Origin: Acidocella sp.
GTDB lineage: Bacteria > Pseudomonadota > Alphaproteobacteria > Acetobacterales > Acetobacteraceae
Direction of reading: 5' to 3'
Length of the DNA: 64,000 nucleotides
Assembly (NCBI RefSeq): GCF_027352905.1
Contig: NZ_DAIEIF010000019.1
Coordinates: 1 to 64,000, forward strand
Positions 19,363-46,791 of the stretch are shown here, piece by piece; position 1 is the stretch's first letter, and every line of letters starts with the position of its first letter. Below the pieces are notes generated by a model. It had not been told where the DNA came from. It made no database searches and saw only the letters and a list, made by a program, of their open reading frames with translations. A program made the position numbers and the translations under genes.

Positions 19363-20300
19363 GCGGCCTCCTTCATCAATTCGCGCGCGGCCCAGCGGTC
19401 GGCGGTCACCAGCGCGGCGGAGGTCATGATATCGAGATTGCCGGCATAGGCGGGCAGGTAATGCGCCGCCCCCTCAACCTCGAGCAGAATGGTGGTCTTC
19501 AACCCGCTGGAAGGGCCGATGCCGGGGATGCGCACCGGCGCGTTGCCGCCGATCGTCTCGAACTGCACCTTCTGCTTCAGCCGGTAGCCGGGCACATAGG
19601 CCTGCACGGTCTTCTCCATCTCGGCGATGGAAGCCTCGATCGCCTCGCGCGTGCCGCCCTGGGACAGCACGAAGATGGTGTCGCGCATGATCAGCGGCGG
19701 CTCCGCCGGGTTGAGGATGATGACCGCCTTGCCGCGCTCGGCGCCGCCCAGCGTCTCGATCGCGTGGGAGGTGGTCTCGGTGAATTCGTCGATATTGGCG
19801 CGGGTGCCGGGCCCGGCGGATTTGGAGGCGATGGAGGCGACGATCTCGGCGTAGATCACCCGGTCCACGGCGCGCTTGACCGCGTGGACCATGGGGATGG
19901 TCGCTTGGCCGCCGCAGGTGACCATATTGACGTTCGGCGCGTCGAGATTGGCGTCGCCATTGATGGCGGGGATGGTGAAGGGTCCGATCGCCGCGGGGGT
20001 GAGGTCGATCACCTTCTTGCCATCCTGCTGGAGAATTTCATTATTCTTGAAATGCGCCCCGGCCGAGGTGGCATCGAACACCACCTTGATCTCGCCATAG
20101 CCGGGCAGGGCGCGTAGCCCCGCTATGCCCTCATGCGTCACCGGCACGCCGAGCCGCTTGGCGCGGGCCAGCCCGTCCGAATCCGGATCGATGCCGACCA
20201 TCGCCCCCATTTCCAGATTGCGCGAGCCGCGCATGATCTTGATCATCAGGTCGGTGCCGATATTGCCGGAGCCGATGATCGCGGCTTTGATTTTGCCCAT
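19359..20300 (-). CDS. xylQ: Acetaldehyde dehydrogenase (acylating)
   Basis: A 313-residue DmpF-type enzyme that oxidises acetaldehyde to acetyl-CoA with NAD and CoA, complexed with the aldolase. It has the GSGNIGTDL Rossmann loop and the catalytic Cys in [14 protein letters not shown]. The ATG at 20300 gives the standard length (about 312 residues); a longer frame would overlap the hydratase gene. It starts just after the hydratase stop. Confidence 0.95.
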
Positions 20301-20304
20301 TCCA

Positions 20305-21093
20305 CTATTCCTTTGCAAAGGCCGCGCGCACCGCGCCCAGCCCCTCGATACGCACATCGAACACGTCGCCGGGCCGCGCCGCCACCATCGGGCCGAGCGC
20401 GCCGGAAAGAATGGTGTCGCCCGCCCGCAGCGGGCGGCCGAGCCGCGCCATGGTCTTCGCCAGCCAGAGGGCCGCGTTGAGCGGCGAGCCCAGGCAGGCC
20501 GCCCCCGCCCCCACCGAGACCGGCTCCCCCGCCCGCTCCATCACCATGCCGCATAAAAGCGGGTCGAAACCGGTGAGCCGCGCCGGGCGGGAACCCAGCA
20601 CGTACAGCCCGGAGGAGGCGTTATCGGCGATGGTGTCGGTGATGCGGATGTCCCAATTGGCAATGCGCGAGCAGACGATCTCCACCGCCGGCACGGCGTA
20701 TTCGACGGCGAGAAAGAGATCAGCCACGGTCAGCTCCGCATCGGCCAGGTCGCGGCCGAGGATGAAGGCGATCTCCGCCTCCACCTTGGGCTGCAACACC
20801 TCGCGCGCGGCGATATCCTCGCCATCGCCCCGCGCCATATCGGCGAAGAGCATGCCGTAATCGGGCTGGTCCACGCCCAGCTGGCGCTGCACCGCGAGCG
20901 AGGTGAGGCCGATCTTGCGCCCGACCAGCCGCCGCCCGGCCGCCAGCGCGCGCTCCGTGTTCAGCGCCTGCACCGAATAGGCGGCGGCCACATCGCCCTC
21001 CGGCAAAAGGCCGCGCACCGGGGCAATGGGCGCGCCGTCCCGCCCGGCGGCGAAGAGAAGATCGGCGGCGGTCTGGATATTGGTCCCGTCCAT
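20305..21093 (-). CDS. xylJ: 2-oxopent-4-enoate hydratase
   Basis: A 262-residue hydratase of the MhpD/DmpE family, forming 4-hydroxy-2-oxovalerate. [31 protein letters not shown] and [16 protein letters not shown] correspond to the metal and substrate site. It is a paralogue of the decarboxylase at 17555, and in known meta pathways the two associate. The start lies 12 bases after the dehydrogenase stop in the operon. Confidence 0.92.
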
Positions 21094-21105
21094 CAGCGCG
21101 CGGCC

Positions 21106-22614: not shown

Positions 22615-22624
22615 GGCGTTCCGA

Positions 22625-23053
22625 TCACGCTGAAAGTCCAAGGGCGGCGAGCCCGGCGGCGGCGGCGGCGCGGTCGTCATCCTCGCTGCCGCCCGACACG
22701 CCGATACCGCCGATCACCGCGCCCTCGTGAGACATGGGCAATCCGCCGCCGAACAGCACCACGTTCGGCCGCGCCGCGATGCCCGCCAGCAGCACGGGGT
22801 TGCCGCTCAGCCCCGCCGCCAGCCCCTCCGTGCTGGCCTTGAAGATGGCGGCGGTCCAGGCCTTGTCGTGGGCGATGCCGATGGAGGCGGCGAAGGCGCC
22901 GTCCCCGCGCAGGCTGGCGACGAGATGCCCGCCCGGATCCACCACCGCGGCGACCACGGCCACGCCCCGCGCCGCCGCCGCCGCCACCGCCGCCTTCACC
23001 GCGGCGAGCGCGGCCTCGGCGGTGACGGCGCGTAGATCACGGGCGAGGCTCAC
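22625..23053 (-). CDS. GlcG/HbpS (DUF336) family protein
   Basis: A 142-residue alanine-rich protein with the DUF336 pattern: VVDPGGHLVASLRGDGA, GIAHDKAWTAA, FGGGLPMSHEG and VIGGIGVSGG. Members bind heme or cobalamin in some species, and short forms are frequent in aromatic-degradation operons, where their role is not settled. Here it lies between the catechol dioxygenase and the semialdehyde dehydrogenase, so a protective or accessory role for an intermediate or the iron enzyme is conceivable. Confidence 0.85.
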   Translation of the reverse strand: MSLARDLRAVTAEAALAAVKAAVAAAAARGVAVVAAVVDPGGHLVASLRGDGAFAASIGIAHDKAWTAAIFKASTEGLAAGLSGNPVLLAGIAARPNVVLFGGGLPMSHEGAVIGGIGVSGGSEDDDRAAAAAGLAALGLSA

Positions 23054-23081
23054 GCCCGCCTCCGGCCGGTGACGCGCCGCA

Positions 23082-24002
23082 TCAGGTCATCACGTTCAGG
23101 AAGGATTCGGGGGCCTGACGTTCGTAATAGAACAAGCCTTTTCCAATCTGGGTCTCGTCCCAGGTGCGGGTGGGATTGTCGGGATAATAAGTGTAGTCCC
23201 CGGTGAAAACTTCGTTCCGGTTGCCGGAGGGATCAAAGAAATAGATGGTCCGTCCTTGAGTGAGGCCATGCCGGGTCGGCCCGATATCGTGGGATATATC
23301 GTAGCGCGTGATGATATCGGCGGCATGGCCGATATCCGCCCAGCTCTCCAATTCGAAGGAAACGTGATGCAGCTTCGCAGGCTCGCCAAATTTGACGAAG
23401 GCGATGTCATGCGCCTTCATGCCGCAGCTCAAAAAGACCGCCGTCAAACCATCCGGCGTATCGACCCGCTCAGTGCAACGGAAATCCAGCACTTTCTCGA
23501 AAAAATCCAGCGCCTTGTCGATATCCGGTCCGAGCAGCAGGACGTGATCAAAACGGCGCACCCTCATGCCATGCGGCTCCACATCCCACACATCCGGGTT
23601 ATGGGTCGGCGGCTTCGGGTCGGAGAGATCGGCATGGGCATAAAGCTCGATGCGATGGCCGGTGCAGACGGTGAAGCCGATACGCCGGCCCAAGCCCGGC
23701 TGCTCGCCAGCGGGCACATGCTCCACGGGATAGCCAAAGGCGGAGACACGTTTCTCCAGCGCGTCAAGATCGGCCTCGGAGGCCACCTTGAAACCCGCCA
23801 CGTCGATCCCGGCGCGATCCGCCTCGCGCAGCACGAGACTGTGATGGTCGAATTCATCCGCCGCCTTGAGATAGACGCGGCCATCGCCGCCCCGCGTCAC
23901 CTCATGCAGGCCGACCCGCTTGGTATAATGCTCCAGCGCCTTTTCCATATCCAAAACCCGTATCTGGGCGAAGCCTGGACGCAACACTCCGGTCATAGCC
24001 AT
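23082..24002 (-). CDS. xylE: Catechol 2,3-dioxygenase
   Basis: Extradiol Fe(II) ring-cleavage enzyme converting catechol to 2-hydroxymuconic semialdehyde. The 306-residue protein aligns by eye with XylE along its length: RPGFAQIRVLDMEKALEHY at the start, iron ligands H153 (RRFDHVLLLG), His in LHHVSFELE (212/213) and E264 (NRNEVF). GPTRHGLTQGRTIYFFDPSG is the C-terminal signature. ATG 24002 has AGGAG eight bases upstream. The XylT-type ferredoxin gene ends one base before it. Confidence 0.96.
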   Translation of the reverse strand: MAMTGVLRPGFAQIRVLDMEKALEHYTKRVGLHEVTRGGDGRVYLKAADEFDHHSLVLREADRAGIDVAGFKVASEADLDALEKRVSAFGYPVEHVPAGEQPGLGRRIGFTVCTGHRIELYAHADLSDPKPPTHNPDVWDVEPHGMRVRRFDHVLLLGPDIDKALDFFEKVLDFRCTERVDTPDGLTAVFLSCGMKAHDIAFVKFGEPAKLHHVSFELESWADIGHAADIITRYDISHDIGPTRHGLTQGRTIYFFDPSGNRNEVFTGDYTYYPDNPTRTWDETQIGKGLFYYERQAPESFLNVMT

Positions 24003-24003
24003 T

Positions 24004-24357
24004 TTATTTCTCCTCGCTTGTCGTGGCCGTTTTCGTTTTACTGGCGACTTGCGGCGGCTCGATCCGCAATTCGATATCGGAAAGGGGATAGATGGAGCAG
24101 GACAGGACAAGTCCCGCCTCGCTCTCCTCCTCGGAAATATGCGCCTGGCTCATCAGATCCTTCCGGTACGCGCCGGAGAGAACCCGCGCCCGGCAAATGC
24201 CGCAGCCGCCCCGCCGGCAACCCACCGGCAATTTATAGGGGAGGTTCTTCAGCCGGCCGAAGCTCTGCGCCCGCTCCATCGCCACCAGGGCGCGCTCGCC
24301 CTCATAGCAGGTGGCCTCGCCCGCGCCCTCGACGGCGATTTTAAATGCCGCCGGCAT
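24004..24357 (-). CDS. xylT: XylT-type plant-like [2Fe-2S] ferredoxin
   Basis: A 117-residue chloroplast-type ferredoxin with the cluster motif GCRRGGCGIC (C-x4-C-x2-C) and the fourth Cys in LSCSIYP. In TOL and dmp systems the gene directly upstream of catechol 2,3-dioxygenase encodes a ferredoxin that re-reduces the oxidised iron of that enzyme; the position here is the same. It could also carry electrons to the Rieske oxygenases, but a dedicated Rieske ferredoxin is encoded at 27268. Confidence 0.88.
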   Translation of the reverse strand: MPAAFKIAVEGAGEATCYEGERALVAMERAQSFGRLKNLPYKLPVGCRRGGCGICRARVLSGAYRKDLMSQAHISEEESEAGLVLSCSIYPLSDIELRIEPPQVASKTKTATTSEEK

Positions 24358-24402
24358 CAGCGTTTCGTCCCTGACATGCGTTTGCTTCCCATCGCGCCCC
24401 GC

Positions 24403-25412
24403 TCAGCCATTCGGCTCGAACAAGATTTTGAGCGCCTCGCCCTTCAGCGCCAGGGCGAAGCCTTCCTCGGCGGCTTGCAGAGGCAGGCGATGGCTGACCA
24501 GCGGCGCCAAATCCACCCGGCCGGAGCGCAAAAGCTCGGTGGAACGCTCCCAACTCTCAAACAGGCGCCGCCCGTGCAGGCCGCGCACGATCAGTCCTTT
24601 CAACACCCAGCGTTCGAGATTGACGCCGACAGCGCCCTCCGCCACGCCGAGCAGCCGGATTTCGCCCCCCGGCGTCATCGCCTCGCCGATCGCGTCAAGC
24701 GCCCCGGCATTGGCGGAGTAGTCGATCGCCACATCCACGCCGCGCCCGCCGCACAGCCGCCTCACCGTCTCGACGAGATTATCCCGCCCGGGCTCGATCA
24801 TATGGGTGGCGCCCATCCCCTCCGCTGATCGCAGCCGGTAGCCGTTGACATCCACCGCGATCACCCGCGCCGCCCCCAGCGCCCGCGCCACCGCCACGTT
24901 CATCAGGCCGATCGGCCCGCAGCCGGAGATGAGGACGTTGAGGCCGGACACGCCCGAACCCTCCAGGCTCGCATGCACGGCGATGCCGAACGGCTCCATC
25001 ATCGCCGCCGCCTCGGCCGGCACGTCCTCCGGCACCGGCCAGAGCACACGCTCCGGCAGCAACACCTCGGAAGCGAACCCGCCATTGAAATCAATGCCGG
25101 GATAGAGCGTATGCGGGCACACATGGGCAGGTGGCTCTCCACGCTCACCCGCATGCCGGGCCGCAGCCGCCGCACCGCCGGGCCGGTTTCCAGCACGATG
25201 CCGCTCACCTCATGGCCGAGAATGGTGGGCGGGCGCATGCGCTGCGCAAACGCCCCCCATTTATAGATCAGCAAATCGGTGCCGCAAATTCCCGCCGCCT
25301 CCACCCGGAGCCTCACCTCGTCGCCCTCGGGCGGGGCCGGGCGGTCGACGAGCGCCGCCGCCACCTGGCCGTATCCCGGCGAGAGCTTTTGAATGGCGAG
25401 CATCCCGGTCAT
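24403..25412 (-). pseudogene. Zn-dependent alcohol dehydrogenase (Tdh-like), broken by an out-of-frame deletion
   Basis: Two frames together give a medium-chain zinc dehydrogenase. The first (25412 to about 25125) has the catalytic zinc Cys (AAGICGTDLLIYKW) and GHE, and ends VSVESHLP. The second resumes as HVCPHTLYPGIDFNGG and continues through the Rossmann loop SGCGPIGLMNVAVA to the stop. Between them the structural-zinc lobe (normally CGxCxxCRxG) is absent and the frame shifts, so roughly 37 to 40 bases were lost near 25122-25130. Both a catalytic-site half and a cofactor half survive but in different frames. It lies after the Rieske beta subunit, where benD/xylL-type diol dehydrogenases often sit. 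Confidence 0.78.
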
Positions 25413-25422
25413 CCCCACCCTT

Positions 25423-25917
25423 TCAGATATTGTAGATGTCGAGCGAGGTGGAGATGAGATCGTTACAGAGCACGATCTTTTTCGCGGCGATGCGCAGGCC
25501 TTGGGCATCGCCTACCAAACGATAGAGATAGGAGCCGAAATAGGTCACCGACGCGCCCTTACGAAAGGCGGAGGCCATCCAGCGCGCGGTCACCCGGAAA
25601 CCGGCTTCCGTTTTCTCGATACGGGGATTGGCGGTGATATGGCTGGTGCGCGGCAGCGGCGTCGAGGCGCTCGAATGGCCGGTCCGGATGCGGAACACCC
25701 GGTCCTCCAAACCGCCGCGCCCCTTGTAATACATCAACGACATCTCGGATTGCGGATCGGCGGTCAATTCCAGCTCCGAATCCCAGGATGGCACCCAGAA
25801 CTCCACGTCATCGGTGAATAGGGCCAGCCAGCGGTCCCAGTCGCGGTTATCCAGGCTCTCCGCCTCCTCCGCGAGAAGATCCTCGATGGCGAAACGCTCC
25901 TCGGGCGAGACCCGCAT
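25423..25917 (-). CDS. benB: Benzoate/toluate dioxygenase-like beta subunit (system 2)
   Basis: A 164-residue beta subunit of an alpha3-beta3 Rieske oxygenase. EDLLAEEAESLDNRDWDRWLALF, the VEFWVPSWD strand and the C-terminal KKIVLCNDLI match the BenB/XylY pattern. The ATG at 25917 overlaps the alpha stop (TGATG). An earlier in-frame start would lie within the alpha gene and is not needed. Confidence 0.88.
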   Translation of the reverse strand: MRVSPEERFAIEDLLAEEAESLDNRDWDRWLALFTDDVEFWVPSWDSELELTADPQSEMSLMYYKGRGGLEDRVFRIRTGHSSASTPLPRTSHITANPRIEKTEAGFRVTARWMASAFRKGASVTYFGSYLYRLVGDAQGLRIAAKKIVLCNDLISTSLDIYNI

Positions 25918-27263
25918 CAACGCTCTCCCGCCCGCATGAGTTCGAGCCATCTTTTATGCTGGGCGACGAATATTCCCTCATCCTCGATCTTGGTGCCGCT
26001 CGACCGCGGGGAAAGGCCAAGCCCACGCGCGAAGTCATCCGCCCCCGCGACCTCATGCGCGGCGCCGCGCGACATGTCGTTCCAGCGCATCGCCGCATGG
26101 GCGGTATAGCCGCGCTGGGCCTCGCAAAACTCGGTCAGATCGTCAGGCGTCGCCATGCCGCTGGCGTTGAAGAAATCCTCGTATTGGCGGATGCGATGCG
26201 CCCGCGCCTTGGGCGATTCGCCCTTGGGGGCGAAGCAATAGATGGTGACCTCGGTCTTATCCACGGCGATAGGCCGGAAAATCCGGATCTGGGTGCTCAT
26301 CTGGTCCATGAGAAAGACATTGGGGTAAAGCAACAGGTTGCGCGACATCTCCACCGCCCAGCTGGCCGCCGCCTCACCCATGCGCCGGGCGAGCTCCTCG
26401 CGCACCGGGTAGAGAGGACGGTCCTGCGGGTTGGAAAACTCCGACCAGATGATGGTATGGCCATTGCCGAGATCGTAATATCCGCCGCGGGATTTGGGGA
26501 AATCCCCGACATTCATCGCCTTGGTCTTCTCGCCCGCCGCCTTGGAGATGGCGCGGTGGCGCATGGTCTCGACGTAATTGGCATGCACGGCGGCGACATG
26601 ATAGCCATCCACCCCGTTCTCGGCCTGCAATTTCCAGTTGCCATCATAGGTGTAGGTCGAGCTGCCTTTGAGAATCTCGATCCCTTCCGGGGATTGATCG
26701 ACGATAACATCGATGAAGGTCTTGCTCTCGGCCAGATAATCTTCAATCGGCTCGACTTCGTCATTGAGCGAGGCGAAAAGAAAGCCGCGATAATTGCCGA
26801 GCTTGAGCCGCCTCAGGCCGAGCTTCGCCTTGTCGAACTCGTCCGGATAGCCGCCGCCTTTTTCATTCATCGGCGAAATCAGCTGGCCATTATCATTGAA
26901 AGCCCAGCCATGAAACGGGCAGACGAAATTGGCCTTGCTGCCCTTGACCTCGCGGCAGAGCGTGGCGCCGCGATGCGGGCAGATATTGGCGAACACATTA
27001 ATCTCGCCCGCCTTGTTGCGCGAGACGATGACAGGCACCCGCCCCACCCAGGTCGTGAAAAAGGATTTAGGCGCCGGCAGCTGGCTTTCATGGCCGATGA
27101 ACACCCAGATCTTTTCCCAGATCGCCTTGAATTCCGCCTCGAACAACGCGGGATCGGTGAAAATGCTCCGGTCGACCCGGCGCAAGCCGCCATCATCCTC
27201 CAGCAACGCGTCGAGGCCGCCGCCGGAATACCGTCCTTGCCTGAAACTCTCGATCGCATCCAT
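25917..27263 (-). CDS. benA: Benzoate/toluate 1,2-dioxygenase-like alpha subunit (system 2)
   Basis: A 448-residue Rieske oxygenase alpha subunit. Cluster ligands are C95, H97, C115 and H118 (CPHRG... CPFHGW); the iron site is D219, H222 and H227 (GVDGYHVAAVH). Long stretches look like BenA/XylX: STYTYDGNWK, NLLLYPNVFLMDQ, TEVTIYCFAPKGES, RQYEDFFNASGMATPDD, NDMSRGA. The likely reaction is 1,2-dihydroxylation of benzoate or a substituted benzoate, but the related 2-halobenzoate and anthranilate enzymes, which yield catechol directly, cannot be excluded. Unusually for this subfamily, no BenC-type fused reductase is present. Confidence 0.88.
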   Translation of the reverse strand: MDAIESFRQGRYSGGGLDALLEDDGGLRRVDRSIFTDPALFEAEFKAIWEKIWVFIGHESQLPAPKSFFTTWVGRVPVIVSRNKAGEINVFANICPHRGATLCREVKGSKANFVCPFHGWAFNDNGQLISPMNEKGGGYPDEFDKAKLGLRRLKLGNYRGFLFASLNDEVEPIEDYLAESKTFIDVIVDQSPEGIEILKGSSTYTYDGNWKLQAENGVDGYHVAAVHANYVETMRHRAISKAAGEKTKAMNVGDFPKSRGGYYDLGNGHTIIWSEFSNPQDRPLYPVREELARRMGEAAASWAVEMSRNLLLYPNVFLMDQMSTQIRIFRPIAVDKTEVTIYCFAPKGESPKARAHRIRQYEDFFNASGMATPDDLTEFCEAQRGYTAHAAMRWNDMSRGAAHEVAGADDFARGLGLSPRSSGTKIEDEGIFVAQHKRWLELMRAGER

Positions 27264-27267
27264 AACT

Positions 27268-27627
27268 TTATTCCTTGTTGTTTTCTAAATGGCGCGCCGG
27301 CTCCAACTCCGCCCACACCTCGCCGTCGACGATGCTCACCGGATAGACGGCGATGCTGACGGTGCAGGGATATTTGCGGGCCTCGCCGGTCCTGATATCG
27401 AAACTACCGCCATGAAAGGGGCATTCCACCTCGCCATTGGCCAACACCTCGCCATCGGCGAGCGAGGCTTCGCCATGGCTGCATGTATCATCCGTCACGT
27501 AATATCCGTCTTCCAGCCGGTACACCGCGAGCGGCGCCCGCCCTTCGATCTCCACCTGCACGGCGCAGCCCTCCGGCACGGCGCTGCAAGCGATCAGGCG
27601 GGTCAGGCGGGGCGAGTCTTGGCTCAT
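27268..27627 (-). CDS. Rieske-type [2Fe-2S] ferredoxin
   Basis: A 119-residue soluble ferredoxin with C-S-H and C-P-F-H cluster motifs 17 residues apart (DDTCSHGEASL and VECPFHGGSFD). It is the electron carrier of three-component dioxygenases (BphA3/NahAb/CarAc type). It starts at ATG 27627 and ends four bases before the system 2 alpha gene, so it should feed that oxygenase, and perhaps system 1, with electrons from the reductase at 29469. Confidence 0.92.
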   Translation of the reverse strand: MSQDSPRLTRLIACSAVPEGCAVQVEIEGRAPLAVYRLEDGYYVTDDTCSHGEASLADGEVLANGEVECPFHGGSFDIRTGEARKYPCTVSIAVYPVSIVDGEVWAELEPARHLENNKE

Positions 27628-27664
27628 CTTCTCGGCGTTTCCTTCCACAAAATCCGTCAAACGC

Positions 27665-28534
27665 TCAGCCGGCGGGGGCCAAAGCGGGCCGGGCCGGCTG
27701 CGCGGCCCGGTCGGCCTCGGCGAAAAAGTCCTCCACGAGCCGCGCGAAGCGGCCGGCATGCTCGATCTGCGTCCAGTGCCCGCATTCGCCGAACACATGG
27801 AGCTGGGAGTGGGGAATCAGCTGGTGCAACCGGTAGGAAACCTCGAGAGGAATCACCTTATCTTCGCGTCCGTGAACCACCAGCGTCTCATGGGGAAGCC
27901 GGGCGATCTTCTCTTCCGGGCTCGCCAGCGCGGCAATCCAGCGCTGGCGCGGCGCGGGAAACATGGCGGAGAACGCTTCCTGCGCGCCGGGGCGGATGCT
28001 GGCGCGATAACGCAGCTCGGCGAGCCCATCGCTCACCAATGCCTGGTTGAAGGCGAAATAATCCATGCATTTGCGCATATTGGCGACGGAAGGCTCGTAG
28101 CCCCACACGGTGTCCAACCCCTCGGTGAGGGGGAACTCCACCCCCGCCGCGCCCATCAGCACCAGGCGGCGGAACCGCTGGGGATGGCGGATGGCGGCGG
28201 CGAGCGAAAGAGCGCCGCCAAACGAGTTGCCGATCACATCGGCTTGCTCGACATCCAGCGCATCCATCAAAGCGAGCAGCTGGCTGATCCATGTATCCAG
28301 ATCATAGCGTATGCCCTCGGGGCGGTCGGTGAAGCCGAACCCCACCATATCGGGCGCGATGACCCGGCGGGTCTTCTCCAGCTCCGGAATGACGAGACGC
28401 CAGTTGGCCCAGGCGCTCACCCCCGGGCCGGAGCCATGGATGAGCAGCACCGGGAACCCCTCGCCCCGGTCATGCAGATTGGTCCGGATACCACCGGCCA
28501 TGACAGATTGCCCGATTTCGGGATTTTCTTGCAT
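27665..28534 (-). CDS. xylF: 2-hydroxymuconic semialdehyde hydrolase
   Basis: An alpha/beta hydrolase of 289 residues for meta-cleavage products. Triad: Ser in GNSFGGALS, Asp in GREDKVIPLE, His in ECGHWTQIE; HGSGPGVSAWANW carries the oxyanion loop. It releases formate (or a carboxylate) and 2-oxopent-4-enoate, the hydrolytic branch that parallels the dehydrogenase branch. First gene of the 14-gene operon; ATG 28534 faces the divergent GntR gene across about 170 bases. Confidence 0.9.
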   Translation of the reverse strand: MQENPEIGQSVMAGGIRTNLHDRGEGFPVLLIHGSGPGVSAWANWRLVIPELEKTRRVIAPDMVGFGFTDRPEGIRYDLDTWISQLLALMDALDVEQADVIGNSFGGALSLAAAIRHPQRFRRLVLMGAAGVEFPLTEGLDTVWGYEPSVANMRKCMDYFAFNQALVSDGLAELRYRASIRPGAQEAFSAMFPAPRQRWIAALASPEEKIARLPHETLVVHGREDKVIPLEVSYRLHQLIPHSQLHVFGECGHWTQIEHAGRFARLVEDFFAEADRAAQPARPALAPAG

Positions 28535-28701
28535 GAGGCTTCTTCTCCCTGCCGGGTCGATCCTCCGGCTTAATATCGTCTTTACCACGCTACCCAACAA
28601 AAAAACTTCTATCAAGAGGAATTTGGATAATATCGATTTTATTGCGGCGCGGAGCGGGATGGTCTATGTCCAATCGCACCCGCAGGAGAGAAGGCGCAAA
28701 A
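28535..28701. promoter_or_regulatory. Divergent promoter/operator region of the meta-cleavage operon and its GntR gene
   Basis: AT-rich gap between xylF (minus) and the GntR regulator (plus). TAATATCG occurs twice in direct orientation (28571-28578 and 28628-28635), 57 bp apart; these are candidate half-sites for the GntR protein. CAGGAGAGAAGG before the GntR ATG is its ribosome site. No strong sigma-70 hexamer pair is evident. Confidence 0.45.
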
Positions 28702-29466
28702 ATGGATCAATCCTTGTTCACCGGGCCGCCCGCCGTCATAAACGGGATCACCCCCGCGCCGGAACGCGCCCGGACGAGCATCGAGGAAACCTATCTTTCG
28801 CTCCGCCAGGAAATTCTCAACGGCGCGCTGCCGCAAGGCTCCAAGCTTCACCTGGAGGGCTTGCGCGCGCGCCATGGCATCAGCACCACGACGGTGCGCG
28901 AGGCCCTTACCCGGCTCATCGGCGACCGGCTGGTGGTGGCGGAAGGGCAGAAAGGATTCCGCGTCGCCCCGATGTCCTTGGCCGACCTTGAAGACCTGAC
29001 CTATGCCCGCATGCAGATCGAATGCCTCGCCCTGGCGGACAGCGTCCGCCATGGCGATGACGAATGGGAGGTGCGGGTGGTGGCGGCCTATCACCGGCTC
29101 GGCATTACCGAGGACCGGCTGCGCGCCGCGCCCGCCCTCCATTTCGACACCTGGGAGCGGCAGAATATGGAGTTCCACGCCGCGCTGGTCTCGGGCGCCC
29201 GCTCCCAATGGCTGGAGCGGATGCGGATGATCCTCTTCCATAATTCCGAGCGGTACCGGCGGCTCTCGGCAACCAAGGGTCCGCCGCCGCTCAAGGTGCG
29301 CGACGAGCATACCGCGATTTTCGAGGCGGCGATCCGCCGCGACGCCGAGGCCGCGGTCGAGGCGATGCGCGTCCATATCGAGCGCGCTTTCAATGTGATC
29401 AAATCCGCCCATCTGCTGCCCGAATCCGGCGGCGGCGCGGCCCTCCCCACCTCACGGAACGCCTGA
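28702..29466 (+). CDS. GntR-family (FadR/FCD type) transcriptional regulator
   Basis: A 254-residue protein with an N-terminal winged helix (LRQEILNGALPQGSKL, then HGISTTTVREALTRLIGDRLV) and an all-helical FCD effector domain (NMEFHAALVSGA, VRDEHTAIFEAAIRRDAEAA). It is divergent from the 14-gene meta operon and is the obvious candidate for its control in response to an aromatic acid or pathway intermediate. The ATG at 28702 is favoured by the ribosome site; an ATG at 28666 would add 12 residues. Confidence 0.87.
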   Translation: MDQSLFTGPPAVINGITPAPERARTSIEETYLSLRQEILNGALPQGSKLHLEGLRARHGISTTTVREALTRLIGDRLVVAEGQKGFRVAPMSLADLEDLTYARMQIECLALADSVRHGDDEWEVRVVAAYHRLGITEDRLRAAPALHFDTWERQNMEFHAALVSGARSQWLERMRMILFHNSERYRRLSATKGPPPLKVRDEHTAIFEAAIRRDAEAAVEAMRVHIERAFNVIKSAHLLPESGGGAALPTSRNA

Positions 29467-29468
29467 CC

Positions 29469-30665
29469 ATGCCCGCCTCACCCGTCATCGTCATCGGCGC
29501 CGGCCTGGCCGGAGCCAGCTTCGTCTCGGAGCTGCGGGGGCTCGGCCATCAGGGCGAGATCATCCTGATCGGCGATGAGGGCCGCCCGCCCTATGACCGC
29601 CCGCCGCTTTCTAAGGCCTATCTTCTCTCCGGCGATGCCGCCCCCCTCGCCCTCGCCTTGCCGCATCTCGACCATTGCGAGCAGATACTGGACGACCCGG
29701 CGGTGGAGGTGGACGCGGCGGCGCGGCGCGTGACCCTCAAATCCGGGCGGCGGCTGGATTATGCCACGCTGGTCTTCGCCACCGGGGCCGCCGCCAAGCC
29801 GCCCCCGCCGCTCGGCCTCGCCGCGCCGGTGCTCAGCCTGCGCACGCAGGACGACGCGGACGCGCTGCGGGCGCGGCTGCTGGCGGGCGGACATCTCGGC
29901 ATCATCGGCGGCGGCATCATTGGCCTTGAGGTCGCGGCGACGGCGCGAACCCTCGGCCTCGAGGTCACGGTCATCGAGGCCGCCGACCGGCTGCTCAGCC
30001 GCAATGCCAGCCCTGCCCTCGCCCGGTTTCTGTTCGAAGCCCATAGCGGCAAGGGCGTGACCTTCCATTTCGGCGGCATGGGCGCGGCAAGCGGGGAGGA
30101 GATCAGCCTCGCCGATGGCGCCCGCCTCCGCCCGGACACGGTATTATGGGCGACCGGCGCCAACCCGAATGACGGCCTCGCCCGCGCCGCGGGGATCGAA
30201 TGTGACCACGGTATTCTGGTGGACGAGCTTGGCCGCACCAGCGCGGCGGGCGTTTTCGCCATCGGCGATGTCGCCCGCCTCAAAAGCGCGGCGGGCGGCG
30301 GGCCGAGCCGCCACGAGACCTGGACGGCCGCGCGCGACCACGCGGCCAATGCCGCCCGCCTCCTCATGGACCCCTCCTTCCGGCCGGACAGCACGGCCTT
30401 TTATTTCTGGACGGATCAGTACGAGCACAAAATCCATGTCATCGGCGCGCCCATGGCCAAGGAGAACGTGATTCAAACCGGCAAATCCCCGGACTCCTTC
30501 GCCATCTATCATGTCGAGGACGGCATCCTCGCCGGTGTCAGCCTCGTCAATAATCCCCGCTTGCTGGGCCCGGCCAAGCGCGCCATCGCCCGCCGCCCGC
30601 GCGTGGACCCCGCCCAGCTTTCCAGCCCCGCCTTCGACCTGCGCGCGGTTTTGCAACCCGCTTGA
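29469..30665 (+). CDS. FAD-dependent ferredoxin reductase (BphA4 type)
   Basis: A 398-residue NADH:ferredoxin reductase of the BphA4/putidaredoxin-reductase family. Landmarks: FAD loop VIGAGLAGASF, RPPYDRPPLSKAYL, NAD loop IIGGGIIGLEVAATA, second FAD motif GVFAIGDVA, and ETWTAARDHAANAA. It starts two bases after the GntR stop. It supplies electrons to the Rieske ferredoxin and so to the oxygenases. Confidence 0.92.
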   Translation: MPASPVIVIGAGLAGASFVSELRGLGHQGEIILIGDEGRPPYDRPPLSKAYLLSGDAAPLALALPHLDHCEQILDDPAVEVDAAARRVTLKSGRRLDYATLVFATGAAAKPPPPLGLAAPVLSLRTQDDADALRARLLAGGHLGIIGGGIIGLEVAATARTLGLEVTVIEAADRLLSRNASPALARFLFEAHSGKGVTFHFGGMGAASGEEISLADGARLRPDTVLWATGANPNDGLARAAGIECDHGILVDELGRTSAAGVFAIGDVARLKSAAGGGPSRHETWTAARDHAANAARLLMDPSFRPDSTAFYFWTDQYEHKIHVIGAPMAKENVIQTGKSPDSFAIYHVEDGILAGVSLVNNPRLLGPAKRAIARRPRVDPAQLSSPAFDLRAVLQPA

Positions 30666-39596: not shown

Positions 39597-40504
39597 AGCG
39601 CGTTGCCGCTCGCATCCATCAACGCCCAGTCGAGCCGCGCGGCGGAGAGCCGCGCCACCATGAAGCCATGCGCGCCGGAGGCGAAGCCGCCGCGGATCGC
39701 CGGGCCGGGCTGATAGGTCTCGGAGCCGGCGCCAGTGCAAATGTAGGAGATGCCGTTCATCTGCACCGCCTGCAGCACATGGTCGTGGCCGCAAATATAA
39801 ACCGGCACCCGATGCGCCCGCAAAACCGGGTCCAGCCGGGCGATGAGATCGGGCTGGTCCGGCCCCTCATAGCCGGGGTCGGCGGCGTGGGCGCCATAAA
39901 TCGGGTGGTGGCCGATGACGATGTTCCAGTCGGCGGTGGAGGCGGCGAGTCCCGCCGCCAGCCAGTCCAGCTGGGCCTGGCTGTCCTGGCCGTTCACCGC
40001 CACCCGCGTGCCGTAATATTTGCGGATGAAGGGCGAGGTGTCGAGGTAATAGAAGGCGGCGCGGCCGCCGCCGGGCAAATCCAGGCTCTGCATGTAATAG
40101 CGCGCGGGCAGCCGCCAGCGCGGGCTTTGGCGCGCATAATCCAGCTGCGCCTGCACATTGCCGCGGTAATCATGGTTGCCCAGAATCACCTGCCAGGGGG
40201 TTTGCAACGCGGGCGCGGTGTACACCTCCTCGAAGGATCTTCGCCATTGCGGGTCGGAGACCGAATCCACGCCGTTCTCGTAGAAATTATCCCCTACAGA
40301 GACCACGAAACGGCTGCCGATGGCGGCGGCGGTTACCCCCATCTGCCGCGCCACGGCGCGCTGGTGGTGGTGCCCAAGCCGGCCCCAATCCCCCACCAGC
40401 AAAAAATTCAGCCCTGCCTCCCCGGCCTCGGCCGGGCGGGCAAGGGCGGCGCCCGTCCCCAGCGCGGCGCCGGCCGTGGTAAACTCGCGTCGGCTCAGTT
40501 TCAT
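39569..40504 (-). CDS. Tat-exported metallophosphoesterase (purple-acid-phosphatase-like)
   Basis: A 311-residue calcineurin-like phosphoesterase. The N-terminus has a twin-arginine signal (KLSRREFTTAGAALG, cleavage near AEA). The metal motifs occur in order: VGDWGR, VGDNFYENGV, LGNHDYRG, IGHHPIYG and GHDH. It is expected to be a periplasmic acid phosphatase. The ATG overlaps the folC stop by four bases, so it is the last gene of the run starting with dnaB. Confidence 0.87.
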   Translation of the reverse strand: MKLSRREFTTAGAALGTGAALARPAEAGEAGLNFLLVGDWGRLGHHHQRAVARQMGVTAAAIGSRFVVSVGDNFYENGVDSVSDPQWRRSFEEVYTAPALQTPWQVILGNHDYRGNVQAQLDYARQSPRWRLPARYYMQSLDLPGGGRAAFYYLDTSPFIRKYYGTRVAVNGQDSQAQLDWLAAGLAASTADWNIVIGHHPIYGAHAADPGYEGPDQPDLIARLDPVLRAHRVPVYICGHDHVLQAVQMNGISYICTGAGSETYQPGPAIRGGFASGAHGFMVARLSAARLDWALMDASGNALYSQSILRG

Positions 40505-41802
40505 CGCCCGGCTCCTGCCTCCACCAGCCCGTCATCCAGCTTCAGCACCTCGCCCGCCAGATACAGGCTGCCACAAATCAGCACCCGCCGGGCGCGGCTC
40601 TGGCGCAACGCGCCCCGCACATCCGGCCCGGCCACGGCGCCGCCGCCCGCCGCCTCGATGATCCGCTCCACCGGCAGGGCGAGATGCTGGCCCGGCTCCG
40701 CCACCGCGAAGAGCCGCGCCGCCTCCGGCCGCACGATGCGGATGAATTCCGCCACGTCCTTCGATTGCTTCATGCCGAGAATCACGTCGGTCGGGCCGTC
40801 CCATTCCCGCAATTGCGCGGCGATGATCTCCGCCCCGCCGGGGTTGTGCGCTCCGTCCAGCCATAATTCGCCCCGCGGCAGCAGCGCCGCCAGCCGCCCA
40901 TGCAGCCTTTGCAGCCGGGCGGGCCAATGGGCGGCGCGCAGCCCCGCCGCCATCACCTCTGGCGCCAGGCGGAACCCCGCGGCCCTCAGCGCGGCGAGGG
41001 CGATCCCCGCATTCTCGATCTGATGCGCCCCGGCCAGGGCCGGTCGGGGCAGGGCGATACCGTCGAACACCATTCCCGCCCCCTCCAGCTCCACCGTCCA
41101 TTCCCGCCCCCGCCGCAGATGCGGCGCGCCCCGGCTCGCCGCCTCGGCGGCGAGGCGGGCCAGCACCCCGGCGGGCTGATAGCCGGTGACCACCGGCACG
41201 CCCGGCTTGATGATGCCCGCCTTTTCCCCGGCGATCAGCTCCAGCGTCGCGCCGAGAAACTCCTGGTGGTCGAGCGAGATGGCGGTAATCGCGCAGGCGG
41301 CGGGCGAGACCACGTTGGTGGCGTCCAGCCGCCCGCCCAGCCCCACCTCGATCAGGCAAAGGTCAGCGGGCACCCGCGCGAACAGCCAGAGCGCCGCGGC
41401 GGTGACCGCCTCGAACACGGTGATCTGCTGCTCGGCATTGGCGCGCTCGACCGCATCCAGCGCCTCGGCCAGCAGCGCGTCCTCCACCGGCGCGCCCTGC
41501 AGGCGGATGCGTTCATTGAAACGCACCAGATGCGGCGAGGTGAAGACATGGGCCCGCATCCCCGCCGCCGCCGCCACCGCCTGGGCGATGGCGCAGACCG
41601 AGCCCTTGCCATTGGTGCCCGCCACGTGGATGACCGGCGGCAGGCGGGTTTGCGGCTCGCCCAGCGCGGTCAGCAGCCGGCGCAACCGCTCCAGGCTGAG
41701 GTCGATGAGGCGCGGATAGCTGGCGTGCAGCCGTTCCAGCGCCGCGCCCGCGCGGCGGCGGGCGGCGGAGGCCCCGGCCTCGGCCTGCAGCTCGTTGCTC
41801 AA
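40501..41802 (-). CDS. folC: Folylpolyglutamate synthase / dihydrofolate synthase
   Basis: Mur-ligase-family enzyme adding glutamate to dihydropteroate and folates. P-loop HVAGTNGKGSVCAIAQA, FTSPHLVRFNERIRL, EVGLGGRLDATNV, SLDHQEFLG, GEKAGIIKPG and DGAHNPGGAE are all present. I take a TTG start at 41802 that overlaps the accD stop (TTGA), giving 433 residues; a second TTG at 41826 is possible. accD-folC order is common in alphaproteobacteria. Confidence 0.93.
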   Translation of the reverse strand: MSNELQAEAGASAARRRAGAALERLHASYPRLIDLSLERLRRLLTALGEPQTRLPPVIHVAGTNGKGSVCAIAQAVAAAAGMRAHVFTSPHLVRFNERIRLQGAPVEDALLAEALDAVERANAEQQITVFEAVTAAALWLFARVPADLCLIEVGLGGRLDATNVVSPAACAITAISLDHQEFLGATLELIAGEKAGIIKPGVPVVTGYQPAGVLARLAAEAASRGAPHLRRGREWTVELEGAGMVFDGIALPRPALAGAHQIENAGIALAALRAAGFRLAPEVMAAGLRAAHWPARLQRLHGRLAALLPRGELWLDGAHNPGGAEIIAAQLREWDGPTDVILGMKQSKDVAEFIRIVRPEAARLFAVAEPGQHLALPVERIIEAAGGGAVAGPDVRGALRQSRARRVLICGSLYLAGEVLKLDDGLVEAGAGR

Positions 41803-42659
41803 GCCGCCATTTGTCGGGCGGTGCAAAACCCGACCAGCCGCGCCAGCATCGGGGTGAGGTCGCCGCGCTTCACCACCATATCGATGATGCCATGCGCGTG
41901 CAGATATTCGGCGCGCTGGAATCCCTCGGGGAGTTTCTCGCGCACCGTCTGCTCGATCACGCGCGCCCCGGCAAAGCCGATCAGCGCCCCCGGCTCGGCG
42001 ATCTGGATATCCCCCAGCATGGCGAAGGAGGCGCTGACCCCGCCAGTGGTCGGGTCGGTCAGCACGACGATATAGGGCAGCCCGGCCTCCTTCACCATCT
42101 GGCTGGCGATGACCGAGCGCGGCATCTGCATCAGGCTGATGGCGCCTTCCTGCATCCGCGCCCCGCCCGAGGCGGTATAGACGATCAGTGGCGCGGCCTG
42201 CAGCACCGCCAGCCGGGCGGCGGCCACCAGCCCCTCGCCCACGGCGGCGCCCATCGAGCCGCCCATGAAGTCGAAGGACATCGCCGCCACCACGGCATTC
42301 ACCCCGCCCAGCGTGCCATGCGCCACCAGAATGGCGTCATCCTGGCGGGTCTTGTCCCGCGCCTCCTTCAGCCGGTCGGTATAACGCTTCTGGTCGCGGA
42401 ATTTCAGCGGGTCCGGCACCGCCTTGGGCAGTTCGATCCGGGTATATTTGCCCTCATCGAAGGTCCAGGCCAGGCGGTCCTGGGCGGTGGCCCGCATATG
42501 GAAGCCGCAATGCGGGCAAACCTTCTTGGCCGCCGCCAGCTCGGTATGGAAGATCATCTGCTGGCAGGAAGGGCATTGGTGCCAGAGATTATCCGGCACC
42601 TCCTTGCGGCCCAGCAGGGTGCGGATCTTCGGGCGGACGAATTCGGTGAGCCAGCTCAT
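41799..42659 (-). CDS. accD: Acetyl-CoA carboxylase carboxyltransferase subunit beta
   Basis: A 286-residue zinc-ribbon carboxyltransferase subunit (CPSC and CPHC), with MGGSMGAAVGEGL, YTASGGARMQEGAISLMQM and DPTTGGVSASFAMLGD. It makes malonyl-CoA with AccA, supplying fatty-acid synthesis. It lies downstream of a patatin-fusion gene and mlaEF in the same direction, so lipid supply, turnover and transport genes are adjacent here. Confidence 0.96.
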   Translation of the reverse strand: MSWLTEFVRPKIRTLLGRKEVPDNLWHQCPSCQQMIFHTELAAAKKVCPHCGFHMRATAQDRLAWTFDEGKYTRIELPKAVPDPLKFRDQKRYTDRLKEARDKTRQDDAILVAHGTLGGVNAVVAAMSFDFMGGSMGAAVGEGLVAAARLAVLQAAPLIVYTASGGARMQEGAISLMQMPRSVIASQMVKEAGLPYIVVLTDPTTGGVSASFAMLGDIQIAEPGALIGFAGARVIEQTVREKLPEGFQRAEYLHAHGIIDMVVKRGDLTPMLARLVGFCTARQMAA

Positions 42660-42766: not shown

Positions 42767-45169
42767 TCAAGCCGCGCCGGCGGGCTTGCCCCGGCCCTGG
42801 TGGCGGTATGAGGCGCTGGCCAGCTGGAGGTCCACATCCGCGCCCTCCGGCATCATCGAGGCATGGCGGGAAGTATCCGCCTCTGCCTCCATTCCGGTGC
42901 GGCCTTGCGCGCCCGGACCCTCCCCCGCCAGCGTCGCCTTGGCCAGCCGGTAGCCCTGCTCCTTGTTGGCATTGATCGCGATGTCCGAGAAATCATAATC
43001 GCGCGAGGCCGGCTCTCCCTGCTGGCCCTGGCGAATGAAACGGGTGATGTGGGTGGCGGAGCCATCCCCCATCAACTCGATATAGATCGGCCGCTGGCGC
43101 AGCTTGGCCCGCAGCGTGGGCTCAACCGCCTCCAGCACGCTATCCACCAGCTGGCGGTAGGAGGCGGTCAGCTCCCGCCAGCGCAGGTCCCGGCGCACGC
43201 GCTCGGCGAAGACGATCTCGTCCCGCCGCGCCATCACCTCCGCGAGATTATTCGGCAGCGGCCGCTCCCCGGCATAGAGATCGACGATGAAGACCCGCTT
43301 GCCCTCCAGCCCGCAGCGCTCGGTCACCATGTCGAGGGGCGAGTTGCTGACCAGCCCGCCATCCCAATAGGCCTCGCCCTCCACCTTGGTCCAGGGAAAG
43401 CCGGGGGGCAGGCTGCCGCTCGCCAGCACATGGTCCGGCGTCATGTCGTCCACATAGCTGTCGAAAATCTCCAGCTTGCCGGTCGTCACCTTCACCGCCC
43501 CCACCAGGAGCCGCACGGGGCTGGCCCGCAGCCGGGGAAAATCCACATAGCGGGCGATCAGCTCGCGCATCGGGCTGGGGTCGTAGAAGCTGAGCCATTC
43601 CGAGGGCGGCGGCGGCAGTTGAAAACATTGGGGCAGCCAGCGCGGGCGGAAGAAACGGGGCACCCCGAAGGTGAGGATCTCCACGGAGGTGATCGCCCGC
43701 GCCATGTTCTCCCCCAGCATCCGGGGGGTTTCAACCGCAAGCTCAGACCAGAAGGAGGCCAGCGCCTGGGTGGCGTGGCGCGGATTGCCGGCGATGATCG
43801 CGCCGTTGAGCGCGCCGATGGATACGCCCGCGACGATATCGGGGTAGATCCCCTCCTCCTCCATCGCCCGCACGATCCCGCATTCGAACGCGCCCATGGC
43901 GCCGCCGCCCTGCAGCACCAGCGCGGTCTGGGTGGGGATGTGGTCGAGGCTGAATTCCGGGTCGGCCAGCCTGTCCTTGACGGCGGCGAGGTTCACCCGG
44001 TGGCGGATAAATCCCTCGACACTGCGCGTCTCCTTGACCGGGCGGTTGACGGAGAGCAGGGCGCGGGGAACATTGTTCTTGAGGTAGAACAACGCCAGCG
44101 AGCCCGATTCCAGCGAGCCGCGGGCGATCCGCTCATCCGCCTCCTCCGGCGCGCCCAGCATGCTGAAGCTGACATCGCCGATATCGCAGAAGAAATAGGA
44201 AACCTCGTCGAAGCGCAGGCGGTGGCCGAGCATGTTGCGGGCCGCGAGCTTGCCCTGTTTCACGGCGTGGTCCCAATGCTCGATATGGCGGCGGCGCATG
44301 AAAACCGGGTCGTCGTAATTCACCACATCCCCGGCCGCGAAAATATTCGGCACGTTGGTCCGCAGCCGGTCGTCCACGAGCACGAACCCGTCCTCCAGCG
44401 CGATGCCGCTGCCCTTCAGATACTCCGTGGATGGCGCCATGCCCATGCTGACCACCATCATGTCGCACTCTATATGCTCCCCCGCGCGGGTGGTGACGGC
44501 GCTGATCCGCGCCTCGCCATGGATGGCGGCCACCGTATCCTCGAGCAGAATTCTCGCCCCCTTCTCTTCCGCGTGGCGCTTGAAGAAGGCGGAGACGTAA
44601 TCGGCCTCGACATGCGGCAGCAGCCGGTCCTCCCGCTCGACGATGGTCACGGCCACGCCCAGCGCGGCCAGGGACATGCCGATTTCCATGCCGAGAAAGC
44701 TGCCGCCCAGAATCACCGCGCGCCGCGCCCCCGCCGCGATGTCCTGGCGGATCGCCTGGCATTGCTCCTTATGGCGAAGATAATGGATGCCGGGCAGGCC
44801 GGCCTTCTCGATATCCAGCCGCACCGGCTCCGTCCCGGTGGCGATCAGCAGGCGCTGGTAGCGGAGCGTCTCGCCCGTCTCGGTGAGAACGGTGGAAGCC
44901 GCGGCATCGACCATCACGGCCCGGGTGTTCAACACCAGATCGATGCGCTTGCGCTCGAAAAAATCACTCGGATAGACCTGTATCTGCGCGTCCGTGACTC
45001 CGCCGAGAAGATATTGCTTAGACAAGGCGGGCCGGTAATAAGGCGGGCTATGCGCCGCGGAGAGCATCATCACCGTGCCATCCTCGCGCTCCAGCCGCAG
45101 CATCGCCGCCGCCGCCGCCGCCGCGCCCCCGCTGCCGAGGATGAGATAATCGACGTCCCGTTCCGGCAT
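42767..45169 (-). CDS. Fusion: FAD/NAD(P) oxidoreductase + patatin-like phospholipase + DUF3734
   Basis: One open frame of 800 residues. Residues 1-400 form a ferredoxin-reductase/AIF-like flavoprotein: FAD loop LGSGGAA (11-17), NAD loop ILGGSFLGMEIG (153-164), ATG-type TGT (111-113), FAAGDV (277-282) and HWDHAVKQGKLAARNMLG (298-315). Residues 415-610 form a patatin lipase: oxyanion loop GGGAMGAFECG (421-431), nucleophile S450 in GVSIG and D603 in WDGG. A DUF3734-like tail (about 690-745) follows, as in many bacterial patatins. I start at ATG 45169 (GAGAGG two bases upstream). It lies 69 bases after mlaF on the same strand, suggesting redox-linked phospholipid turnover. The fusion is seen; the function is inferred. 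Confidence 0.85.
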   Translation of the reverse strand: MPERDVDYLILGSGGAAAAAAAMLRLEREDGTVMMLSAAHSPPYYRPALSKQYLLGGVTDAQIQVYPSDFFERKRIDLVLNTRAVMVDAAASTVLTETGETLRYQRLLIATGTEPVRLDIEKAGLPGIHYLRHKEQCQAIRQDIAAGARRAVILGGSFLGMEIGMSLAALGVAVTIVEREDRLLPHVEADYVSAFFKRHAEEKGARILLEDTVAAIHGEARISAVTTRAGEHIECDMMVVSMGMAPSTEYLKGSGIALEDGFVLVDDRLRTNVPNIFAAGDVVNYDDPVFMRRRHIEHWDHAVKQGKLAARNMLGHRLRFDEVSYFFCDIGDVSFSMLGAPEEADERIARGSLESGSLALFYLKNNVPRALLSVNRPVKETRSVEGFIRHRVNLAAVKDRLADPEFSLDHIPTQTALVLQGGGAMGAFECGIVRAMEEEGIYPDIVAGVSIGALNGAIIAGNPRHATQALASFWSELAVETPRMLGENMARAITSVEILTFGVPRFFRPRWLPQCFQLPPPPSEWLSFYDPSPMRELIARYVDFPRLRASPVRLLVGAVKVTTGKLEIFDSYVDDMTPDHVLASGSLPPGFPWTKVEGEAYWDGGLVSNSPLDMVTERCGLEGKRVFIVDLYAGERPLPNNLAEVMARRDEIVFAERVRRDLRWRELTASYRQLVDSVLEAVEPTLRAKLRQRPIYIELMGDGSATHITRFIRQGQQGEPASRDYDFSDIAINANKEQGYRLAKATLAGEGPGAQGRTGMEAEADTSRHASMMPEGADVDLQLASASYRHQGRGKPAGAA

Positions 45170-45238
45170 GGCCTCTCTCCTACCTTCGCCCATGAGCCGC
45201 GCCGGAAGCCGAGGCGGCCGTCCGGCCAAGACCTCGTT

Positions 45239-46009
45239 TTAACGGCGCAGCGCCATCTTGATCGGCCCATGGGCGCGGCCATGGGTGAATTGCTCCACCA
45301 CCGGGTCGGTGCAGGTCATCAATTCGCCCGCCGGCCCGGTCCAGGTGATGCGGCCTTCATACAGCATCGCCGCCCGGTCGGCGATGCGCTGGGCGGAGGC
45401 CATGTCATGGGTGATGGCGACCGAGGTGCTGCCCAGTTTTTTCACGCAATCCACGATCAGCTCGTCGATCACCGCGCCCATGATCGGGTCGAGGCCGGTG
45501 GTCGGCTCATCGAGAAAAATGATCGCCGGGCGCGCGGCGATGGCGCGGGCCAGCCCCACGCGCTTCTGCATGCCGCCCGACAATTCGGCAGGGGAAAGCC
45601 CCGCCACGTCCGGCCCCAGCCCCACCTGCGCCAGCACCTCCACCGCCACGTCGCGCGCCCGCGCGCGGCTCACCTTTTTCTGGGCCAGCAGGCCGAAGGC
45701 CACATTCTCCCACACCGGCAGAGAGTCGAACAACGCCCCGTTCTGGAACAGCATGCCGATCTGCTCGCGCAGCGCCCGCGCCTGATGGCGGGGCGCCTTC
45801 AGCACGTCCACGCCGTCGATCTCGATGCTGCCGCCATCGGCGGGGATGAGGCCGAGAATACATTTGAGCAGCACGGATTTGCCGGTGCCGGAGCCGCCGA
45901 TCACCACCATGCCGGTGCCGGTCGCGACATCGAGATCCACCCCATCCAGCACTTTTTTCGGCCCGAAATGCTTCTTCAGACCCCGGATGCGGATCTTCGG
46001 CCCGCTCAT
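45239..46009 (-). CDS. mlaF: Phospholipid-transport ABC ATPase (MlaF)
   Basis: A 256-residue ABC ATPase: Walker A GGSGTGKSVL, signature LSGGMQKRVGLARA, Walker B IIFLDEPTTGLDP and ITHDMASA. It pairs with MlaE in transport of phospholipids between the inner membrane and the periplasm. The start overlaps the mlaE stop by four bases. No mlaD substrate-binding gene follows; its place is taken by the oxidoreductase/patatin fusion. Confidence 0.93.
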   Translation of the reverse strand: MSGPKIRIRGLKKHFGPKKVLDGVDLDVATGTGMVVIGGSGTGKSVLLKCILGLIPADGGSIEIDGVDVLKAPRHQARALREQIGMLFQNGALFDSLPVWENVAFGLLAQKKVSRARARDVAVEVLAQVGLGPDVAGLSPAELSGGMQKRVGLARAIAARPAIIFLDEPTTGLDPIMGAVIDELIVDCVKKLGSTSVAITHDMASAQRIADRAAMLYEGRITWTGPAGELMTCTDPVVEQFTHGRAHGPIKMALRR

Positions 46010-46791
46010 TTGACGAACAGCACCTGGGTGAGCACGTAATCCAGCGCCAGGATGAGGATGGAGGCTGACACCACCGCCGAGGTGGTGGCCGCGCCCACCC
46101 CTTGCGCTCCCCCGCGCGAGCGGTAGCCGTTGAAACATCCCATCAGGGCGATGACGAAGCCGAACACCGCCGCCTTGATCAGGCCGGAGACCACGTCCTG
46201 CGTCTGGAGCGTGTTGAAGGTGCTGGTGAGATAGCCGCCGGAGGAAAACCCCAGCTTGTTGGTGGCGACGAGAAATCCGCCCAGCACGCCGATTATGTCG
46301 GCCAGCAGCACCAGCGCCGGCAGGGCGAGGGTGCCCGCCAGCAGCCTTGGCGCCACCAGATATTTCATCGGCTCGGTGGCGAGGGTGGAGAGCGCATCGA
46401 TCTGGTCGGTCACCCGCATGGTGCCGAGTTCCGCCGCCATCGCCGCCCCGGCCCGGCCGGAAACCATCAGCCCGGCCAGCACCGGCCCCAATTCGCGCGT
46501 GACCGAGAGCACCACCACGGAGGCGATGGCGCTTTCCGCCCCGAAGCGGGAGAAGCCGGTATAGGATTGCAGGGCCAGCACCATGCCGGTGAACAGCGCG
46601 GTGAGCGCCACCACCGGCAGGGAGAAATAGCCGATCTCCATGAAGGCGCGGCCGAGCTGGCGCGGATAATAAGGCGGCAAGACCACGTGGGCGATGCCGG
46701 AGGCCGCGAACATCCCCAGCTCGCCGATATATTCGACGATGCCGAGCACGAAGGCGCCAAGCCAGGCCACCCCATCCAGCAGGGCGTTCAT
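46006..46791 (-). CDS. mlaE: Phospholipid-transport ABC permease (MlaE)
   Basis: A 261-residue MlaE/DUF140 permease with about five transmembrane segments. ALFTGMVLALQSYTGFSRFGAE, TRELGPVLAGLMVSGRAGAAMAAELGTM and DALSTLATEPMKYLVAPRLLA are family signatures. It overlaps alr (ATGA) upstream and mlaF downstream, forming a coupled alr-mlaE-mlaF unit. Confidence 0.94.
   Translation of the reverse strand: MNALLDGVAWLGAFVLGIVEYIGELGMFAASGIAHVVLPPYYPRQLGRAFMEIGYFSLPVVALTALFTGMVLALQSYTGFSRFGAESAIASVVVLSVTRELGPVLAGLMVSGRAGAAMAAELGTMRVTDQIDALSTLATEPMKYLVAPRLLAGTLALPALVLLADIIGVLGGFLVATNKLGFSSGGYLTSTFNTLQTQDVVSGLIKAAVFGFVIALMGCFNGYRSRGGAQGVGAATTSAVVSASILILALDYVLTQVLFVK

Follow-up and report, generated by a model that had tools for sequence, protein, structure and literature searches.

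Here, we report a gene of Acidocella sp. that joins an NADH/FAD reductase, a patatin, and a DUF3734 domain in a single protein. On balance, we favor reading the product as a PatD-type hydrolase of PHB or 3-hydroxybutyrate esters with NADH/FAD redox coupling, at slightly better than even chances. A redox-linked enzyme of PHB breakdown is more likely than a membrane phospholipase, because the same fusion often adjoins PHB-breakdown genes in other genomes. PHB serves both to store carbon and as a sink for electrons, and the tie of its mobilization to redox state is poorly understood. "Window" denotes the whole 64,000-nucleotide stretch analyzed (contig NZ_DAIEIF010000019.1, positions 1 to 64,000).

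Results

The gene (Table 1) lies on the minus strand, has no internal stop, and begins with an ATG preceded by a ribosome site (GGAGAG). All four Pfam matches (Pyr_redox_2, Reductase_C, Patatin, and DUF3734) exceed curated cut-offs; Patatin (PF01734) scored 101.7 bits against a cut-off of 27.7, and DUF3734, C-terminal to the patatin, scored 62.3 bits against 22. The reductase motifs GxGxxA (residues 12 to 17), GGSFLGME of the second Rossmann fold (155 to 162), and GD (280 to 281) are intact, as are the patatin oxyanion loop GGGxxG (421 to 426), GVSIG with Ser450, and Asp603-Gly-Gly. Among 54 aligned fusions, these motifs are invariant or nearly so, with Ser450 and Asp603 invariant. An earlier note, made from the sequence alone, had described one frame of reductase, patatin, and DUF3734 with its nucleotide-binding loops, oxyanion loop, and catalytic dyad intact, and that description is borne out. 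It had also allowed for a hidden stop at residues 400 to 415 splitting two genes; none is present, and 72 other loci read through the same junction, which also rules out a sequencing or assembly chimera. A recent foreign insert does not show in composition (GC3, 0.86, versus 0.84 to 0.90 in neighboring genes). A 1,058-residue open frame runs antisense to the fusion and mlaF (window 42863-46039, plus strand), and high GC content is its likeliest cause.

Table 1. Features of the fusion gene and its neighbors (window positions; residues are those of the fusion protein)
Feature	Position	Strand	Basis or remark
Fusion gene, NADH/FAD reductase + patatin + DUF3734	42767..45169	-	800 codons
Pyr_redox_2, residues 7-306, FAD and NAD(P) Rossmann folds, ferredoxin-reductase type	44252..45151	-	Pfam, 4e-57
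Reductase_C, residues 325-409	43943..44197	-	Pfam, E 4.4e-8, above cut-off
Inter-domain junction, residues 388-419, constant length	43913..44008	-	Alignment of 54 fusions
Patatin catalytic domain, residues 417-614	43328..43921	-	Pfam, 8e-29; fold matches PlpD/CapV/patatin, Z 24-26
Patatin nucleophile Ser450	43820-43822	-	GVSIG motif
Patatin Asp603	43361-43363	-	Asp603-Gly-Gly
DUF3734, residues 652-748	42926..43216	-	Pfam, 6e-17
C-terminal tail, residues 751-800 + stop, not conserved	42767..42919	-	pLDDT <50, low confidence
mlaE-mlaF pair, upstream neighbors by position, not conserved with fusion	45239..46791	-	mlaE 46006-46791, mlaF 45239-46006
accD-folC, downstream neighbors by position	40501..42659	-	accD 41799-42659

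The whole protein was modeled with AlphaFold2 (input excluding rows from plasmid records; mean pLDDT, 83.7; pTM, 0.82), and we read the model as holding the two halves in a predicted fixed arrangement. The N-terminal half matched 3lxd (Z, 46.0; rmsd, 2.0; 407 residues aligned) and has a ferredoxin-reductase fold of the disulfide-free BphA4 type. The position of Glu178, where the second strand of the NAD domain ends, holds an acidic residue in 48 of the 54 fusions, which suggests NADH as the reductant. Because a structure search with the 800-residue model listed reductases only, a separate model of the patatin half was built and searched; this half has a patatin fold (PlpD Z, 26.0; rmsd, 3.2 over 244 residues; CapV, CapE, and patatin Z, about 24). 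The junction from Ile388 to Leu419 measures 31 residues in every one of the 54 aligned fusions, and such constancy does not look like that of a free linker. Extra conservation of Reductase_C as a sign of an interface, judged against stand-alone reductases, amounted to little and was not used as evidence.

As the earlier note had proposed, the same architecture was searched for, together with its gene neighbors. The search yielded 73 single-ORF fusion loci (50 clusters at 80% identity), mostly proteobacterial. Four of 38 same-genus genomes carry the fusion, one of them in a copy interrupted by stops, as do 2 of 385 class genomes (the window's own included), five plasmids, and dozens of other genomes, with hosts among the alpha-, beta-, and gammaproteobacteria, Desulfarculales, and one Myxococcota-assigned MAG. 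It is rare and sporadic yet widespread. The patatin-domain tree has a branch (100% support) that parts the 73 fusions from 31 stand-alone patatins, and in a tree of the reductase half the fusion members likewise fall on one side of a branch (98% support); because both trees are quick ones with long branches, they support a single origin but do not prove it. Fusions from betaproteobacteria nest among sequences of acetic acid bacteria and Xanthobacter, and several copies are plasmid-borne, some on conjugative plasmids. This mixing of bacterial groups, with the plasmid copies, makes horizontal transfer likely. One near relative adjoins an apparent transposase gene. Besides spreading, the gene is subject to decay, since a same-genus copy (G045:C33) is truncated, with two TAG stops; it lies close to transposase-fragment-like sequences. 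One stand-alone patatin (G004:C108:8245-9054) is about 43% identical to the patatin half of the fusion, above the other stand-alone ones, and has no detectable reductase half nearby; we are unsure of its position in the tree.

In the window, the gene order is dnaB, alr, mlaE, and mlaF upstream and accD and folC downstream, so the fusion follows mlaE-mlaF and precedes accD, as first described. The accD-folC pair is kept at 29 of 29 same-genus accD loci (the window's own aside), and at none of these do mlaF or the fusion lie upstream of accD in the stretch examined; likewise, neither the fusion nor accD lies downstream of mlaF at any of 29 same-genus mlaF loci. Many same-genus loci have a bioD-like gene downstream of mlaEF, contrary to the suggestion that mlaD might belong in the fusion's place. 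The order mlaEF-fusion-accD is private to the window's genome, and the apparent operon therefore cannot be used to infer function. Elsewhere in the window, positions 14116-30665 resemble an aromatic-degradation block (gene names from translations alone), with two Rieske dioxygenase large subunits and their small subunits (15317-17213 and 25423-27263, both minus strand), meta-cleavage lower-pathway-like genes (17555-22680, minus strand), and a stand-alone ferredoxin-reductase-like gene (29469-30665, plus strand) 28% identical to the reductase half of the fusion.

At least one PHB gene (3-hydroxybutyrate dehydrogenase, acetoacetate decarboxylase, phasin, or PHB depolymerase) was found at 30 of the 73 fusion loci, at most 300 bases from the fusion in 28 of them. 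By kind, 3-hydroxybutyrate dehydrogenase occurred at 17 loci, phasin at 12, acetoacetate decarboxylase at 11, and PHB depolymerase at 9; by cluster (80% identity), 15 of 50 were positive. No PHB gene was found near the fusion at the other 43 loci, the window's among them, which weighs against the PHB reading. Near flanks (406 kb) held many matches of all four kinds and far flanks (801 kb) depolymerase matches only, from two loci, in raw counts that enter some genes twice (two queries matching one ORF). Neighbors were assigned with the curated models PHB_DH, PHB_depo_C, ADC, and Phasin_2. Among 120 adjacent genes scanned, there were 15 SDR/PHB_DH (including scores below the PHB_DH cut-off), 7 PHB_depo_C, 3 ADC, and 3 Phasin_2.

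Annotated records of Tardibacter and Sphingopyxis plasmids have the order adc-fusion-bdhA with a phasin close by, and a Cupriavidus record has phaZ beside the fusion. PhaZ, the intracellular PHB depolymerase (TIGR01849/PF06850) counted as a fusion neighbor at nine loci above, is of the alpha/beta-hydrolase type, with no sequence kinship to the patatin. Acidocella aminolytica carries adc-bdhA-fusion in one copy and fusion-adc-bdhA in another, the latter with a phasin-like gene after it that narrowly misses the Pfam cut-off. Some fusions of Burkholderia and Cupriavidus relatives (L029, L084, L086 to L090, and L101) lie near CBS, BON-domain-like, PolX, GroEL, or formate-dehydrogenase genes besides phaZ, surroundings that hint at an island for stress or low oxygen.

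The family shares its Patatin and DUF3734 domains and its bdhA/adc neighborhood with stand-alone DUF3734 patatins; L. pneumophila PatD, of the Legionella bdhA-patD operon, matches these patatins in its bdhA neighborhood and is a putative DUF3734 protein. Stand-alone DUF3734 patatins adjoin bdhA and/or adc at 10 of 14 class-level loci and at most same-genus loci. One stands in a patatin-adc-bdhA operon on Rhizobium plasmid pRL9, and plasmids of two Legionella species carry one beside a 3-hydroxybutyrate dehydrogenase. These PatD types consist of a lone patatin, about 350 to 450 residues long and about 31 to 39% identical to the window's patatin half; they have no flavin module, whereas the fusion has one, and the fusion patatins fall outside them in their own clade, the fully supported one described above. 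PhaZh1, a patatin of Haloferax mediterranei, is reported to depolymerize PHA to 3-hydroxybutyrate and adjoins bdhA (PMC11205408, PMC4823750). It too is a single patatin protein, unlike the fusion, and is likened to it by description and bdhA neighborhood rather than by sequence. Against the PHB reading, knocking out patatin-like PHB proteins changed little in Haloferax (PMC4823750) and in Synechocystis (PMC7203880).

The bdhA/adc linkage holds for the fusion family overall; in the window's own genome, the adc-bdhA pair lies on another contig (C13), where the 3-hydroxybutyrate dehydrogenase scores above its curated cut-off. The patatin that normally accompanies this pair in the genus is missing there, and the genome encodes no DUF3734 protein besides the fusion; on these two grounds, the fusion may do the work of PatD from its own, distant locus. 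The genome has phaR and phasins. Alone among 38 genus genomes, it gave no PhaC_N match (estimated completeness, 99%), and next to phaR stands a PhaC-like alpha/beta hydrolase of 407 residues that carries a GYCMGG box. The missing PhaC_N is either a gap or a real loss of PHA synthase, and the missing canonical PhaC is the main evidence against the PHB reading.

Discussion

We propose that the fusion would act in the cytoplasm as a bifunctional enzyme of PHB/3-hydroxybutyrate metabolism. Its patatin-DUF3734 half, of PatD type, would use the Ser450/Asp603 dyad to hydrolyze PHB or 3-hydroxybutyrate oligomers, and the 3-hydroxybutyrate released would pass to the dehydrogenase/decarboxylase pair encoded on the other contig. 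The N-terminal NADH-type FAD reductase, held to the hydrolase at the fixed junction, would probably make depolymerization respond to the NADH/NAD+ balance, which 3-hydroxybutyrate oxidation shifts, either by sensing NADH or by transferring electrons to some acceptor.

This proposal is built on the architecture, the intact motifs, one clade for each half, the fixed junction, the PHB neighborhood, and the bdhA linkage of the stand-alone patatins. Its parts differ in strength. PHB is taken as the substrate because of gene neighborhood and family, and a PHB/3-hydroxybutyrate-ester hydrolase is probable, at roughly two chances in three. Coupling of the halves is proposed because they are fused, joined at a fixed junction, and intact in their motifs; that NADH is the reductant is suggested by the acidic residue 178, and functional NADH coupling remains tentative, with the balance tilted against it.

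That the reductase is instead an ordinary donor to a ferredoxin and an oxygenase or P450, with the patatin freeing an acyl substrate and the two fused for co-expression alone, we think unlikely. The best fold and family relatives are indeed ferredoxin reductases: the whole N-terminal half, Reductase_C included, shares the fold of the BphA4, TodA, and putidaredoxin reductase family at 24 to 28% identity, and aromatic dioxygenase genes lie a few kilobases off on the Tardibacter and Sphingopyxis fusion plasmids. However, those dioxygenases possess their own reductase, and unlike members of that family the fusion carries a hydrolase. Among the curated ferredoxin-reductase models listed, no cut-off was reached (AndAa, 224.8 bits versus 650; HcaD, 208.7 versus 450), and none of 70 fusions had a 2Fe-2S or Rieske small protein within four genes, by a weak motif test that covers near and not distant partners.

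The earlier note had favored a phospholipase whose action on membrane phospholipids, perhaps oxidized ones, depends on redox state, with the products taken by the adjacent Mla transporter. The patatin fold with its intact dyad, nearest solved folds that are phospholipases (PlpD, CapV, and patatin), and mlaEF directly upstream in the window agree with it. Nevertheless, the gene order behind it is private, same-genus mlaEF and accD lying apart with no fusion there, and no Mla gene is among the commonest neighbors of other fusions; Mla/phospholipid coupling was accordingly rejected as an explanation of the context. We consider the phospholipase quite unlikely. The general idea of a redox-linked hydrolase stays plausible and the Mla and phospholipid link is unsupported, since a patatin half of the bdhA-linked PatD type with recurrent PHB neighbors points to PHB rather than phospholipid.

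It is improbable that the flavin half works like AIF/FSP1, as an NADH:quinone or lipid-peroxide reductase guarding the surface of a PHB granule or membrane while the patatin clears damaged acyl chains: apoptosis-inducing factor is a structural relative of the reductase half (Z, about 38 to 40) but ranks below the ferredoxin reductases, and quinone or peroxide genes are absent among the commonest neighbors. An anti-phage role as a CBASS-like effector phospholipase that includes a redox sensor is very improbable, for despite the CapV/CapE-like fold (Z, about 24) and weak local PADLOC and CBASS_lipase matches, the CBASS_lipase (CapV) score is 36.3 bits against a cut-off of 200, no cyclase occurs in the 25 commonest families of adjacent genes, and the neighbors are metabolic.

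In a literature search that left most subscription journals outside, we found no paper describing the fusion, none naming DUF3734, and none mentioning a patatin, a pyridine nucleotide-disulfide oxidoreductase, and a fusion together; the parts are known and the fusion itself is apparently undescribed, in line with the earlier note, whose author knew of no characterized enzyme of this kind.

Plasmid records annotate the fusion only as an FAD-dependent oxidoreductase, and such records conceal a hydrolase. That the fusion represents a horizontally spread family whose members rigidly join a flavoprotein that reads NADH to a PHB-depolymerizing patatin, so that the NADH/NAD+ ratio gates breakdown, is a rather doubtful extension; if true, it would place a direct redox gate on PHB breakdown within one polypeptide.
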